64,000 bases of DNA, taken from contig NZ_CP021646.1 of NCBI RefSeq assembly GCF_002208135.1, forward strand, positions 3,494,501-3,558,500. Direction: 5' to 3'. The notes beneath the pieces are model-generated. The model had not been told where the DNA came from, searched no databases, and saw nothing but the letters and a program-made list of their open reading frames with translations. The stretch comes from Pseudoalteromonas piscicida (GTDB lineage: Bacteria > Pseudomonadota > Gammaproteobacteria > Enterobacterales > Alteromonadaceae). Every line of letters begins with the position of its first letter. Within the stretch, counting starts at the first letter, position 1. Below are positions 3,484 through 17,917 of this stretch, piece after piece. The position numbers and the translations under genes were made by a program.

Positions 3484-4767
3484 ATGAATGTACTAGTCAT
3501 TGGCAGCGGTGGACGTGAGCATGCGCTTGCGTTCAAAGCCGCACAAAACCCATCTGTAAAAACGGTTTTTGTAGCACCTGGTAACGCAGGCACTGCGCTT
3601 GAGCCTAAACTCGAAAACGTGGCTATCGGCGTTGAAGATATCGATGCCTTGGTCGTCTTTGCGAAAGAAAACAATGTGCAATTAACCATTGTTGGCCCTG
3701 AAGCACCACTGGTTATCGGTGTGGTTGACCGTTTCCGTGACGAAGGCTTAGCTATTTTTGGACCTACTCAAGCGGCAGCACAGTTGGAAGGTTCAAAGTC
3801 GTTTACTAAAGACTTTTTAGCACGTCACGATATTCCAACAGCGGCTTATCAAACGTTTGAAGAGATTGAGCCTGCACTTGCCTACTTGAAAGCACAAGGC
3901 GCACCTATCGTCGTTAAGGCTGATGGTCTTGCTGCTGGTAAAGGGGTCATCGTGGCAATGACCGAAGCGGAAGCGGAAGAAGCTATCCGCGATATGCTTG
4001 CTGGTAATGCTTTTGGCAAAGCAGGCAGCCGTGTTGTTATTGAAGAGTTCTTAGAAGGTGAAGAAGCCTCTTTCATCGTGATGGTTGACGGCAAAAATGT
4101 ACTTCCTTTTGCCACCAGCCAAGATCACAAACGTGCATACGATGGTGATAAAGGCCCAAATACAGGTGGCATGGGTGCTTATTCTCCTGCTCCTGTGGTC
4201 ACGCCAGATATTCATGATCGCATCATGGCTGAAGTGATCAATCCAACGGTTGAAGGTATGGCGAAAGAAGGTCACCCTTATACTGGTTTCCTATACGCTG
4301 GTTTGATGATCACAGCGGACGGCACACCAAAAGTTATCGAGTATAACTGCCGCTTTGGCGACCCTGAAACACAGCCTATCATGTTACGCCTACAATCGGA
4401 TCTTGTTGAGCTGATTGAAGCGGCTAACCGTGAAGAGCTAGATCAAACTGTGATTGAGTTTGATCCACGTGCGGCAGTAGGTGTCGTTCTGGCAGCCAAA
4501 GGTTATCCTGGTAGCTACCCTAAAGGTGACGCGATTTCTGGCCTACAAGTAAATTACGCTGAAGGTGAAAAAGTGTTCCATGCTGGGACTAAGCAAGATG
4601 GTGAACACGTCGTGACTGCTGGTGGTCGAGTATTATGTGCAACGGCCCTTGGCCACACAGTAACCGAAGCGCAAAAACGCGCCTACTCTCTAGTGAAAGA
4701 CATTCACTGGGACGGTGTAGAGTACCGCACAGATATCGCGTATCGCGCAATCGCACGCGAAAGCTAA
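3484..4767 (+). CDS. purD: Phosphoribosylamine-glycine ligase (GAR synthetase)
   Basis: PurD joins phosphoribosylamine and glycine using ATP, the second step of purine synthesis. It is 427 residues long, typical for the family. The N-domain starts MNVLVIGSGGREHALAFK. The ATP-grasp domain (about 100-320) shows IVVKADGLAAGKGV, the HKRAYDGDKGPNTGGMGAYSP segment and EYNCRFGDPETQ, which carry the nucleotide and metal ligands. It follows the lipoprotein gene by 15 bases and ends at an intrinsic terminator. In E. coli purH and purD are adjacent; here a foreign gene and a terminator separate them. Confidence 0.98.
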   Translation: MNVLVIGSGGREHALAFKAAQNPSVKTVFVAPGNAGTALEPKLENVAIGVEDIDALVVFAKENNVQLTIVGPEAPLVIGVVDRFRDEGLAIFGPTQAAAQLEGSKSFTKDFLARHDIPTAAYQTFEEIEPALAYLKAQGAPIVVKADGLAAGKGVIVAMTEAEAEEAIRDMLAGNAFGKAGSRVVIEEFLEGEEASFIVMVDGKNVLPFATSQDHKRAYDGDKGPNTGGMGAYSPAPVVTPDIHDRIMAEVINPTVEGMAKEGHPYTGFLYAGLMITADGTPKVIEYNCRFGDPETQPIMLRLQSDLVELIEAANREELDQTVIEFDPRAAVGVVLAAKGYPGSYPKGDAISGLQVNYAEGEKVFHAGTKQDGEHVVTAGGRVLCATALGHTVTEAQKRAYSLVKDIHWDGVEYRTDIAYRAIARES

Positions 4768-14275: not shown

Positions 14276-14401
14276 TAATCATCTTCAAGTAGTATGAGTA
14301 AATATCATCTCAAAATAGCCTTTATAAAGCATTAACCTACTTACAAACTCCCCCTAAACATGCTAAATCATGTAATGAGAGTATTTTTAGGGGGCGATCC
14401 T

Positions 14402-16033
14402 GTGTTTTCTAGTTTCACATTAAAAGCAAAAATAATTACCTTTGCCGCCGCAATATTTATTTCCTTACTTGCTGTAGCCTTTGTAGGCCTTCAAGCTCTG
14501 CGCCATGCCAGTGAAAGCGATAATATTGCGCGTATCAATCAGTTAATGAAAAGCACCGTTAATATTGTTAAACAATTTGAGCTGTTTGCAGAGCAAGGAA
14601 AACTGACGGACCAACAAGCAAAAGAAATGGCGATTCAGGTTTTAAGAGAAAATAAATACCATGACTCTGAATATGTGTACGTAGTGAATGACAAAATGGA
14701 CTTCGTAGCGACACCTCATGATCCCCAATTGCACGATACTAGCTTTAACGACTTTAAAGATGCCGATGGCAAAAGCATAGGCAGCATGGTGAAGCGCTTA
14801 GTCGGCAACCAGTTTGATCGGATCATTACCTACAATTGGACTTCATTACGAGATGGAGAAATTGTCGACCTAACCTCCGTGGTGCAAAAAACCCCAGGAT
14901 TTGGCTGGTACGTCGGCACAGGTATTAGTTATAAAGAAGTGAACGAGCGCTATTGGGATACCGCTATTTGGCTAGTGGCACTTTCTTTAGCAGTTGCTGT
15001 TGCATTAACCACCGCACTTGCGCGATTTGGACTATCACTCAACAATAAGCTAGGTGCCGAAATCAATGATGTACTCGCAATCGTAAAACACGTCTCACGA
15101 GGTAACCTCACGACACCAATAAACACCTCGGATTGTGAAGATTATAGTATTCTCGCAGCCATGGCCTATATGCAAGACGGATTGAAAGGGGTAGTTGAAG
15201 GACTCAAAGACGCAACCAAGGCGCTACAAAACCAAACATCAGACAGCGAAGTGCGCTCAGTAGAACTTGAAAACCTAACTCGCAGTTTAAACGCAGAAAC
15301 TCAAATGGTGGCTTCTGCAATTACCGAGCTCACAGCATCAGCACAAACCGTTGTCGAACATGCAGAACAAGCTGCGAATTCGGTTCAAGAGGCCGAAAAG
15401 CAAGGTAATGCAGCCGACAAACTGACAGCACAGGCTGCGACTGAAATTGCATTATTAGAGCAACAAATTGACAGCGCTGGTAATAACATTCAAGTGCTAG
15501 ATGAAGAAGTATCTAATATCGCCAATGTACTTACCGTTATCCAATCTATCGCCGAGCAAACCAATCTACTGGCACTCAATGCCGCAATAGAAGCTGCGCG
15601 AGCTGGAGAGCAAGGACGAGGCTTTGCTGTCGTAGCGGACGAAGTCAGGCAGCTTGCTCAACGCACTCAAACCAGCACAGAAGAGATCCGCACCATGATC
15701 ACTAAACTGCAAAGTGCGACTCAGGATGCTAAAGCTTCGGTAAGTTTAAGTATTGCAACAAGTGAAAAGACGGTGAGTATGTCGTCTAAGGCATCCCAAG
15801 CGCTTGCGCAAGTCGCCGATTCTTTAAAATCTATATCACAGATGAGTCATCAAATATCTCAAGCAGCTAAAGAGCAACTGGATGCCGGTGAAGATACAGC
15901 CAAACGCGTCGTGATTATTTCTGATACCGCGTCCCAAACGGCTAGCGTCTCTGAAAAAGCACATAAAGCAACAGATACGATTAAATCATTATCCGGAAAT
16001 CTGGAGCTTGAGATGGCTAAATTCAAGGTGTGA
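14402..16033 (+). CDS. Methyl-accepting chemotaxis protein with periplasmic Cache sensor
   Basis: A transmembrane chemoreceptor of about 543 residues. The GTG at 14402 is preferred because AGGGGG lies 7 bases upstream and it gives a normal short N-terminus before TM1; an ATG at 14360 is in frame but has no ribosome site. Domains in order: TM1, a single-Cache (sCache_2-like) sensor with [18 protein letters not shown] and [11 protein letters not shown]2, HAMP-like region, and the signalling hairpin [32 protein letters not shown]. There is no C-terminal CheR/CheB pentapeptide. Relatives of this sensor bind small organic acids. It stands alone, 239 bases upstream of the small peptide gene. Confidence 0.92.
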
Positions 16034-16156
16034 AAAATGATTTTATCCTTACTTTTCATACCATTAGAATAGTGTAAATATATCTAAACTATTATTTGAA
16101 AATTTTCTTTAATTTTTCATTCACCTTGTGTTTATTTGGTGTTAAGTTTGTACCTG

Positions 16157-16198: not shown

Positions 16199-16213
16199 TT
16201 GTGATATTCACAA
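16199..16213. promoter_or_regulatory. Inverted repeat overlapping the -35 of the peptide promoter
   Basis: TTGTGA-TAT-TCACAA is a perfect 6-bp palindrome with a 3-base centre. It overlaps the putative -35 (16207-16212). The spacing is wrong for CRP (6-base centre). A repressor operator is inferred. Confidence 0.45.
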
Positions 16214-16235
16214 TAAAAGACCAATCCAATATAAT
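16207..16235 (+). promoter_or_regulatory. Sigma-70-type promoter of the GG-leader peptide gene
   Basis: TTCACA (16207-16212, five of six matches to the -35 consensus) and a perfect TATAAT (16230-16235) are separated by exactly 17 bases. Transcription should start near 16242, giving a leader of about 37 bases before the ATG at 16279. Confidence 0.65.
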
Positions 16236-16239
16236 TTGA

Positions 16240-16258
16240 TCACTTGAAATTCAAGTGA
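16240..16258. promoter_or_regulatory. 19-bp palindrome at the predicted transcription start of the peptide gene
   Basis: TCACTTGAA-A-TTCAAGTGA is a perfect 9-bp inverted repeat around one base. It covers the expected +1 and lies 8 bases before the AAGGA ribosome site, so it could act as an operator or as an RNA hairpin limiting translation. Confidence 0.55.
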
Positions 16259-16278
16259 GTTCAATAAGGACTATGATA

Positions 16279-16404
16279 ATGCAAAAGCTAAATTTGAAAG
16301 AATGCAAAAAGGTTTCTGGTGGCAATATTTATGAGCCAAACGATCCTAAAGCAGCAAAAAGCGAAACTCCTACTGCAAATAATGAAGCTAACAAAAAAGA
16401 TTAG
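16279..16404 (+). CDS. Small double-glycine-leader peptide (bacteriocin/pheromone-like precursor)
   Basis: A 41-residue ORF below usual gene-calling size. The start at 16279 is chosen because AAGGA ends 8 bases upstream; an ATG at 16273 is too close. Residues 1-15 read MQKLNLKECKKVSGG, a classic GG leader of the Bacteriocin_IIc type that is cut by C39-peptidase ABC exporters. The predicted mature peptide is 26 residues, starts NIYEPND, and is very hydrophilic (rich in Asn, Lys, Ala, Glu, Pro, no Cys) with net charge near -1. It is unlike the amphipathic, glycine-rich membrane-active bacteriocins. It has its own promoter and lies 9 bases upstream of a membrane-protein gene. No exporter is in the window. 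A signalling or immunity-paired peptide is inference. Confidence 0.68.
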   Translation: MQKLNLKECKKVSGGNIYEPNDPKAAKSETPTANNEANKKD

Positions 16405-16413
16405 CACTCACCT

Positions 16414-17034
16414 ATGAAGAAAAACTTTTCATTAGGAGACTTACTCATTCCTTATGCTATTGTCGCAGTAGGCCTCCTAGTTCTGTATGATATTAGGTTT
16501 CATTTCTATCTCATTTACCTGTTAATCGTTTTAACGGTCTTTATTTTGGGTGCTCGATTAAAAGACATCAATATATGTGCTTTATCTCTTCTTGCTATCG
16601 TACCGTTCACCCTAGAGACTGCTGTTTTTTCCTCCGGTTTCATAAGCTTAGATTCGTCTAAAGATCAGAGGTTACTTCAAAATACTCTCATTTTTGGCGC
16701 ACACTTTTTAATCGACTTAATGGTCGTATTCCCACTTACATACCGTGTGGAATTGACGAGAAAGTTATTTCCTAAATTCAAAACCCGCTATACGTTTGCC
16801 GATGCAATAATGCCTTGGTTAGCAATATTTAGCGTATGTATGAGCTTTGCTGCCTTAGTTGAAAATTACCTTAGAAATGCAAAAGGTGTGAACCTTACGT
16901 TCTTTTTCTACAGCTTTGACGTTAGCGGTTATTTGATATATAGCGCAAACTGTTTAATTTTGTTGATTTTAGCCGCAGTTACTTACAAGGAAGCGTATGA
17001 TTATGCACTTCCAAGCCTGAGGAAAAAGAGATAG
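16414..17034 (+). CDS. Unrecognised six-helix membrane protein downstream of the GG peptide
   Basis: A 206-residue integral membrane protein with about six hydrophobic helices (roughly 10-28, 29-46, 50-72, 90-107, 130-150 and 172-192) and a basic C-terminus (SLRKKR). I recognise no family and see no metal or catalytic motif. It starts 9 bases after the peptide stop with no strong ribosome site of its own, so translation is probably coupled to the peptide. By analogy with small peptide operons it could be an immunity protein, a receptor or a transport helper, but nothing in the sequence decides between these. Its stop is 5 bases from the stop of the convergent solute-binding protein gene. Confidence 0.7.
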   Translation: MKKNFSLGDLLIPYAIVAVGLLVLYDIRFHFYLIYLLIVLTVFILGARLKDINICALSLLAIVPFTLETAVFSSGFISLDSSKDQRLLQNTLIFGAHFLIDLMVVFPLTYRVELTRKLFPKFKTRYTFADAIMPWLAIFSVCMSFAALVENYLRNAKGVNLTFFFYSFDVSGYLIYSANCLILLILAAVTYKEAYDYALPSLRKKR

Positions 17035-17039
17035 CCAAC

Positions 17040-17831
17040 TCAAAAGTAAGGGTTTACTAGCTCAATACTATCGCTTTCAAGTTGCTTATTAAGACCATAC
17101 TTTTGTTTTAAGGATTGTAACTCGCCAGACGCTTGAAGTTTGGCAAGTCCCTCTTCCAAAGCCGTTGCTAAAGCCTGCTTATCCTTATTCACAAAGAAAT
17201 AAAATGCGGTTGAATACTCAAGGTGAAAATCAGGCACTATCATCAACTTTTCATTATTTTGCGCAATGAGCTCTGAATCAGCCTCGATTATTGAGCGTGG
17301 AAAATAATCCGCTTTTTTATCCACAATCAGATTAAACATAGTTTGATAATCGGAGATAGGTCTGACCTTAAGGCCGTTATAACTAAGAATTTTGGTGTCA
17401 GGCCAATCGTGCCCCTGAACCGCGGTAAAACGCTTTAAATCGTCAAGCGAGCGAACAGCCTTTATGGCTGGATAAATATCTTTATGAACAATCAGCACGC
17501 GTTTGCCGATAAGTCCATCGTATAAAGGGACCTTAATAGGAATAGCAATTTGCTCACGAGCTGGGCTGGTCATTGACCAATGTAAATCAACCTTACCTCG
17601 GCTTAGTGCCATTAACGTTCGCTGTTGATGAGGATGGATTTTGATGTGTTCAATTTGAGCTGAGTACTTCGCAGCAGCCAGTGCTTTTTCTAGTATTTCA
17701 TAGAGATAAAGATCGCGATCATACAAGGTTCGCGCCTCTTTCGCGACATAGATTAACTCAGGAGCTTGCGCCGCGATAGAGGTGCTTTGAAACACCAGAG
17801 CGGAGATAATTACACTCAACTTTAACTTCAT
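17040..17831 (-). CDS. Periplasmic solute-binding protein, family 3-like (orphan)
   Basis: A secreted protein of about 263 residues with the type II periplasmic-binding fold. The start at 17831 is chosen because GAGGG lies 7 bases upstream and it places the signal peptide (MKLKLSVIISALVFQS, cleavage near IAAQA) at the N-terminus; an ATG at 17870 is in frame. Conserved features are a YEILEKALAAAKY segment near the ligand cleft, ALSRGKVDLHWSMTSPAREQ (typical of SBP_bac_3) and KLQASGELQSLKQKYGL at the end. No permease or ATPase genes are adjacent. Such orphan proteins are common in Alteromonadales, and the ligand is unknown. Confidence 0.8.
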   Translation of the reverse strand: MKLKLSVIISALVFQSTSIAAQAPELIYVAKEARTLYDRDLYLYEILEKALAAAKYSAQIEHIKIHPHQQRTLMALSRGKVDLHWSMTSPAREQIAIPIKVPLYDGLIGKRVLIVHKDIYPAIKAVRSLDDLKRFTAVQGHDWPDTKILSYNGLKVRPISDYQTMFNLIVDKKADYFPRSIIEADSELIAQNNEKLMIVPDFHLEYSTAFYFFVNKDKQALATALEEGLAKLQASGELQSLKQKYGLNKQLESDSIELVNPYF

Positions 17832-17917
17832 CGCACAACCCTCTTTTAGGGGAAACAATACTACAATCAAGAGTATTTTTACGGATTGCTATTACTATTG
17901 CGTAACTAAAAATATAG

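Follow-up and report, generated by a model that had tools for sequence, protein, structure and literature searches.

What might a short peptide gene and a membrane-protein gene, lying 9 bases apart on the chromosome of a marine Pseudoalteromonas, be doing together? The window, which is the whole stretch of 64,000 nucleotides that was analysed, corresponds to C1:3494501-3558500 of a 5.3-Mb genome in two contigs. An earlier note had proposed that the two genes form a candidate peptide system, in which a 41-residue ORF with a double-glycine leader is followed by a 206-residue membrane protein, and this layout was confirmed from the sequence. The coding features of the locus are the following:

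16279..16404, plus strand: peptide precursor gene, 41 amino acids, ATG at 16279, stop at 16402-16404, leader codons under purifying selection.
16279..16323, plus strand: double-glycine leader MQKLNLKECKKVSGG, with L at -12, C at -7, V at -4, G at -2 and G at -1, fitting the family leader.
16324..16401, plus strand: predicted mature peptide NIYEPNDPKAAKSETPTANNEANKKD, 26 residues, consisting of the allele-type core NIYEPNDPKA and a variable tail; the cleavage is predicted.
16414..17034, plus strand: six-helix membrane protein, a predicted receptor or immunity protein, 206 amino acids, ATG at 16414, stop at 17032-17034.

A second in-frame ATG is present in the window at 16273; position 16279 was taken as the start because its spacing from the ribosome site is better and the ATG at 16273 is out of frame in the ortholog L011. 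In the alignment of the window peptide with its orthologs the codon differences within the leader are purely synonymous in 11/11 sequences, indicating purifying selection on the leader. The window leader has the double-glycine layout, with hydrophobic residues at -12, -7 and -4 and the glycines at -2 and -1. Among 155 distinct leader-plus-core units of the family, position -12 is occupied by L in 75% and I in 12%, position -4 by V or I in 88%, and position -7 by C in 43% and a hydrophobic residue in most of the others. The pattern used to find these units specified -4, the GG and a proline motif, with -12 and -7 excluded, and the inclusion of the proline motif makes statistics on the core partly circular. 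The resemblance to Bacteriocin_IIc leaders suggested earlier was not seen in profile searches: no Pfam or NCBIfam model, including PF10439, PF03047 and TIGR01847, matched the window peptide even at E 10. The precursor of a relative (L170) matches the NCBIfam bacteriocin leader model TIGR01847 in three stretches (35 bits, cut-off 15.7) and stays below the cut-offs of PF03047 and PF10439. A chance reading frame would likewise be short and without a family match; this explanation is contradicted by the synonymous-only variation of the leader and by the recurrence of the gene, which leave it a negligible probability.

Upstream of the peptide gene, several candidate control elements were recognised:

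16132..16152, plus strand: conserved upstream block TTATTTGGTGTTAAGTTTGTA, identical or 1-2 bases off in the loci of the window clade.
16207..16235, plus strand: promoter-like hexamers TTCACA-N17-TATAAT (TTCACA 16207-16212, TATAAT 16230-16235), the -10 element being unconserved in orthologs.
16240..16258, no strand assigned: inverted repeat TCACTTGA-AAT-TCAAGTGA, directly 5' of the ribosome site, read by eye.
16266..16270, plus strand: ribosome site AAGGA.

The ribosome site was noticed earlier and is kept in 11/11 orthologs. The strong promoter claimed for the locus fared less well: the hexamers and their 17-base spacing are present, but TATAAT is confined to the window copy among the 11 aligned rows, the others having TACTAT, TACAAT and similar sequences. 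The upstream block, which takes the form TTATTTGGTGTTAA in nine more distant loci (the L021-L032 set), may be a promoter or a regulator site. The core of the inverted repeat, CTTG-N-CAAG, is kept in 9/11 orthologs in the versions ACTTG/CAAGT and GCTTG/CAAGC, and could serve as an operator or as a hairpin in the 5'UTR or RNA. Across the orthologs the arms of this repeat show paired A-T/G-C exchanges, with G-T in two.

AlphaFold2 models the membrane protein of the window with six long helices (mean pLDDT 81.7), in agreement with the roughly six helices first read from its sequence, and the same number was obtained for P0026 (pLDDT 84.4), a relative fused to an XRE-type DNA-binding domain. In 30 diverse aligned members R111 and E150 are invariant, N53 and N151 occur in at least 90%, and there is no invariant Cys or His. 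The N-terminal DNA-binding domain of the fusions must be cytosolic, which together with six helices would place both ends of the protein inside; on this topology R111 would be expected at the inner face, and E150-N151 towards the outside, close to the end of helix 5. For the membrane protein no model of Pfam or NCBIfam exceeded its cut-off, and in Pfam no SdpI, AgrB, immunity or kinase model matched the window protein at E 10. In PDB fold searches with both models the membrane domain had no match at E <= 0.001, while the top rows for P0026 were XRE DNA-binding domains; the absence of SdpI and AgrB from these fold-search lists was given no evidential weight. The label DUF412 was rejected for the window protein (E 0.1, 13.1 bits, cut-off 23.6), as was a match in its own genome at C1:1366634 (E 0.02), a DUF412-like ORF beside ackA whose resemblance is attributed to chance. 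In a protein search that scored 7996 candidates, the window protein was 97% identical to a P. maricaloris protein, and further database relatives reach 90% (P. peptidolytica) and 87% (P. piscicida). No published description of the membrane-protein family or of the peptide pair was found, subscription papers and some preprints being outside the scope of the search.

Relatives of the membrane protein are encoded in 44 of 108 genomes of the genus. Iterated profile searches on the fetched loci recovered 171 ORFs of two kinds, one of about 190-230 amino acids with no DNA-binding domain and the other of 250-295 amino acids with an N-terminal XRE domain. After later loci had been added, 151 HTH-less members, with the window pair outside this number, and 42 XRE fusions were scored for a peptide just upstream by means of a tight motif (hydrophobic residue at -12, V/I/L at -4, GG or AG or GA, and the proline motif; XRE ORFs excluded). 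Such a peptide precedes 105/151 HTH-less members, 0/42 XRE-fused members and 2/517 control ORFs, the controls being other ORFs of at least 150 amino acids within the same loci; both control hits resemble genuine family peptides (...CDAVFGAGPWQPEDP...). The remaining 46/151 HTH-less members lack a peptide of the tight motif. With a looser motif the counts were 116/151 HTH-less members and 6/517 controls, at least one XRE ORF (L172) being miscounted as a peptide; at this setting the peptide occurs in 33 of 49 clusters (60% identity) and is also missing in six small clusters within the genus (L122, L066, the second gene of L038, L053, L126 and L044). The loosest motif (126/151 and 73/517) was too permissive and was discarded. 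The earlier note would have been undermined had relatives lost the GG site or the pairing of the two genes; both proved conserved, as the synonymous-only leader variation and the tight-motif counts attest, and the note's interpretation is supported to that extent.

The window pair is flanked by two genes:

14360-16033, upstream of the pair: chemoreceptor (MCP) gene, MCPsignal and sCache_2 by Pfam.
17040-17870, opposite strand, downstream of the pair: solute-binding protein gene by Pfam.

In 40/41 locus entries (36 genomes, some represented twice, and two contigs) the chemoreceptor gene adjoins the pair; the sole exception, L042, sits at a contig end. The GG-leader ORF and the 206-residue membrane protein are a conserved, co-inherited cassette in Pseudoalteromonas. 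Several variants of the arrangement were observed. In L014 (G045) the membrane gene is broken and the peptide ORF intact, and in L033, L037 and L038 (minus strand) the pair is directly followed by another HTH-less membrane gene, which lacks an accompanying peptide. In L152/L184 (G205) the ORF upstream of the membrane gene has no GG leader and ends in repeats of the YTGxGxxTxxxP(K/A) type; it is perhaps a differently exported precursor.

Comparison of 10 orthologs, with L014 kept in the 11-row alignment and omitted from the identity, DNA-profile and tree comparisons, revealed three matched alleles of core and membrane protein, [NG]IYEP, GIFEP and GIWMP:

Group A: L001 (window), L010, L011, L012 and L013, core NIYEP or GIYEP.
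Group B: L015, L016 and L017, core GIFEP.
Group C: L018 and L019, core GIWMP.

The core type agrees with the membrane-protein clade in 10/10 orthologs. Between L001 and each of L015, L016, L018 and L019, the chemoreceptors are 96.5-97.6% identical with dS of 0.42-0.63, the membrane proteins are 59-69% identical with dS saturated, and the DNA is 91-100% identical in the leader versus 52-64% in the core and tail. For L001 and L015 the values are 97.6% for the part of the chemoreceptor present in the loci, 92.9% for the solute-binding protein and 68.9% for the membrane protein; for L001 and L018 they are 96.7, 85.1 and 59.7%, respectively. Read from 5' to 3', the DNA of L015 is 94% identical in the intergenic region, 98% in the leader, 52% in the core and tail, 64-68% in the membrane gene and 92-95% beyond it. 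In the chemoreceptor tree the B-type L016 groups with the C-type L018 (support 100/99), and monophyly of the GIFEP group B (AU test, p 1.2e-12) and of group A (p 0.0016) is rejected on it. The tree of the membrane protein in turn rejects the chemoreceptor grouping (p 1.6e-4). The conflict of the trees and the identity profile together indicate that the core and the membrane protein travel jointly between chromosomes, and have been exchanged between species, while the leader and the flanks stay.

This pattern bears on the possibility that the exported peptide is functionally unrelated to its neighbour and that the pairing is a matter of operon convenience. The 9-base gap would suit it, as one transcript would fit both genes; against it, core type and membrane allele switch together in all of the 10 orthologs and the flanks do not, so that this explanation is quite improbable. 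Joint exchange of this kind would be the product expected of matched specificity, of a pheromone and its receptor or of a toxin and its immunity protein alike.

Relatives of the window pair provide two further lines of evidence. The first is the structure of the precursors, of which 20 of 102 distinct ones contain at least two leader-plus-core units by the tight motif; within these 20, the second unit of L094 and the first listed units of L093 and L098 are unlike leaders. Examples are:

L103, 5172-5960, minus strand: polyprotein with six units by motif, seven by eye.
L170, 2831-3325: polyprotein with three units by motif, five by eye.
L166 (own genome), 3988-4437: polyprotein with four units.

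Every polyprotein core has its own leader in front, e.g. LSIDILKKVNGG|SGGHKGPDPK in L170.

The second line is the association with XRE-type regulators. Within the 850 nt upstream of the gene, 84/149 HTH-less members have an XRE-like ORF, as do 32/49 clusters, and Pfam models HTH_3, HTH_19 and HTH_31 exceed their cut-offs in the sampled stand-alone and fused XREs. The window's own genome encodes nine family members, namely five HTH-less proteins, all accompanied by a GG peptide, and an array of four fusions on contig 2. A search of this genome with one XRE query found eight such proteins; the fusions account for four, and the remaining four lie next to the other pairs. The window pair, alone among the five, has no adjacent XRE, and none was found in the clusters of the window clade (0/8, 0/20, 0/2, 0/3, 0/1 and 0/1). 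At L005 5182-10489 (G000:C2, own genome) the four XRE-membrane fusions flank a locus of the order XRE, peptide, peptide, membrane protein; the XRE halves in this array are near-identical and the membrane halves divergent. A conserved ORF of 77 amino acids with no Pfam or NCBIfam match is present in 17/114 fetched loci, among them the four remaining own-genome loci, the window pair lacking it; examples, among others, are:

L005 10606-10836, minus strand: 77-residue ORF.
L166 2903-3133: 77-residue ORF.
L167 6338-6568: 77-residue ORF.
L168 3033-3257: 77-residue ORF.

The fusions also bear on an AgrB-like role, in which the membrane protein would be the processing enzyme or exporter of the peptide and not its receiver. 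The order of the genes, peptide then membrane protein, and a size near that of AgrB would agree with such a role. It would be redundant given the C39-type leader, the same domain occurs in XRE fusions with no adjoining peptide (none among 42), no AgrB model of Pfam matched, and the invariant residues are an arginine and a glutamate, not a Cys/His pair. A processing role is thus very improbable.

Export of the peptide is predicted to depend on a C39-peptidase ABC transporter. The own genome has two matches to PF03412 (C39), at C1:4097805 (E 4.8e-39) and C1:4072392 (E 5.5e-35), the latter with the architecture C39, ABC_membrane and ABC_tran. Both lie outside the 64-kb window, in which no C39 exporter was found, as had been observed before. 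Looking through the genome for further GG leaders and for exporters of the C39 class, as the earlier note had suggested, yielded five peptide/membrane-protein pairs and these two exporters. Searching the fetched flanks with the best-aligned C39 ORFs gave nothing but one weak ABC ORF, in L107, and therefore the exporter is apparently not encoded with the pair. A C39 match at E <= 2e-30 is present in 44/44 genomes of the genus with the family versus 21/64 without it (Fisher 1.7e-14, ignoring phylogeny). The surroundings of the two exporters were also inspected. Near 4.09 Mb on G000:C1 (L135 2801-5017 and 8009-11481) glycine-rich, class II bacteriocin-like GG peptides lie near a C39 exporter and an HlyD-like partner, and the leader MIMLEIKLNECKEVSGG at L135 4587-4805 closely resembles the window leader. 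Near 4.07 Mb (L134 1517-8098) the other C39 exporter is accompanied by an HlyD-like gene, a His_kinase histidine kinase and a LytTR response regulator.

It is somewhat more probable than the alternatives combined that the cassette encodes a peptide pheromone and its receptor, i.e. that it is a "pherotype" cassette. A C39-peptidase ABC transporter, encoded at another place in the genome, would cleave the peptide behind the Gly-Gly and export it, and the six-helix protein would recognise the proline-containing N-terminal segment NIYEPNDPK; this segment is taken as the recognised part because the core type follows the partner and the tail varies. In relatives, binding of the peptide might alter an XRE-type regulator that is either kept at the membrane or set free from it. 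For the two-gene form in the window, output may proceed via a regulator in trans, for which the eight XREs of the own genome, four stand-alone and four membrane-fused, are candidates, or the membrane protein may act without one.

The main competitor is a toxin/immunity system, in which the peptide is a small microcin-like toxin against which the six-helix protein shields the producing cell; the protein might also sense the toxin, in the manner of SdpI with SdpR. Exchange of matched partners at a fixed locus suits such a system equally well, the window clade has no neighbouring regulator, the own genome has class II bacteriocin-like GG peptides by a C39 exporter, one with a leader near that of the window, and SdpI of Bacillus subtilis offers a precedent as a membrane anti-toxin (PMC6818787). 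The predicted mature peptide speaks against it: it is hydrophilic, as first described, with 4 K, 2 D, 3 E, no Cys and mainly polar residues, and NIYEPNDPKAAKSETPTANNEANKKD is not the hydrophobic or amphipathic peptide that characterises class II pore-formers. Fusion of the membrane domain to a DNA-binding domain in 42 relatives, precursors that repeat near-identical cores, and the lack of any SdpI or immunity match in Pfam at E 10 also disagree with a toxin. Signalling is preferred because fusions of this membrane domain to DNA-binding domains exist and precursors repeat near-identical units; XRE regulators adjacent to or fused with the family in relatives, and the polyproteins, tilt the balance in the same direction. 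The toxin/immunity explanation is accordingly rather unlikely, at something over a quarter of the total weight.

Peptide pheromones with matched receptors are well known in Gram-positive bacteria. In the Rgg/SHP and ComR/ComS systems XRE-type receptors bind, by a cytosolic domain, a peptide that has been re-imported; the family described here resembles them in that an XRE DNA-binding domain is tied to a peptide gene (in relatives), whereas its partner domain is in the membrane. SdpI sequesters SdpR, an ArsR-type regulator. In PMC6818787 SdpI of Bacillus subtilis is presented as a membrane anti-toxin encoded with the repressor SdpR. SdpC/SdpI/SdpR and the present family share a secreted peptide (predicted here) and a membrane protein of similar size; a small DNA-binding regulator completes the Sdp locus and many loci of relatives here, but not that of the window pair. 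There is no sequence match to SdpI, the regulator is of the XRE and not the ArsR type, a GG leader replaces SdpAB processing, and the present peptides are not known to be toxic. With class II bacteriocins and microcins that have GG leaders, the window peptide shares the leader layout and the exporter class, and TIGR01847 matches the relative L170; unlike them, it has a hydrophilic proline-containing core, no pore-forming or glycine-zipper region and no adjacent exporter.

The closest parallels are the streptococcal CSP/ComD and BIP/BlpH systems, described as double-glycine pheromones with pherotypes in PMC7595303, where Rgg is also mentioned. They have in common with the present cassette the GG leader, the C39 exporter and an allele-matched peptide and membrane partner, and joint allelic variation of peptide and partner at one locus was indeed found here. 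They differ in employing a histidine kinase and a response regulator, in place of which there is a six-helix protein with no kinase domain; the window pair is flanked by genes for a chemoreceptor and for a solute-binding protein, not a kinase. Gram-negative hosts, the XRE link in relatives and the polyprotein nature of some precursors are further differences.

Beyond the genus, a family-level search found matches in 35/395 genomes and 10/52 genera (8 candidates scored per genome). Genus g14 (genomes G228 and G120) has strong multi-copy matches; in further genera with weaker matches an XRE ORF is present and the GG peptide absent (L161, L165). The order sample gave matches in 3/394 genomes, all Pseudoalteromonas, and the phylum sample in 1/398, the own genome (7 candidates scored per genome in each), and distant family members may have been missed by these searches.

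A broader proposal, which is tentative and falls short of an even chance, is that these loci constitute a Gram-negative peptide-hormone system. It would comprise GG peptides, single or prohormone-like with up to seven units, and a new family of six-helix receptors that control XRE partners or act as one-piece membrane-bound transcription factors, with five channels in one Pseudoalteromonas cell; the window would be a pherotype locus at which ligand and receptor are swapped jointly between species. If the toxin/immunity explanation were true instead, the peptides would be a microcin-like family, small and hydrophilic, for which a large number of matched immunity alleles exist. The cassette is likely to be a means of chemical communication between bacteria that has so far been overlooked and, if the peptide/receptor reading is true, it would provide a concrete genetic basis for peptide signalling in Gammaproteobacteria, with a testable ligand sequence for each locus.
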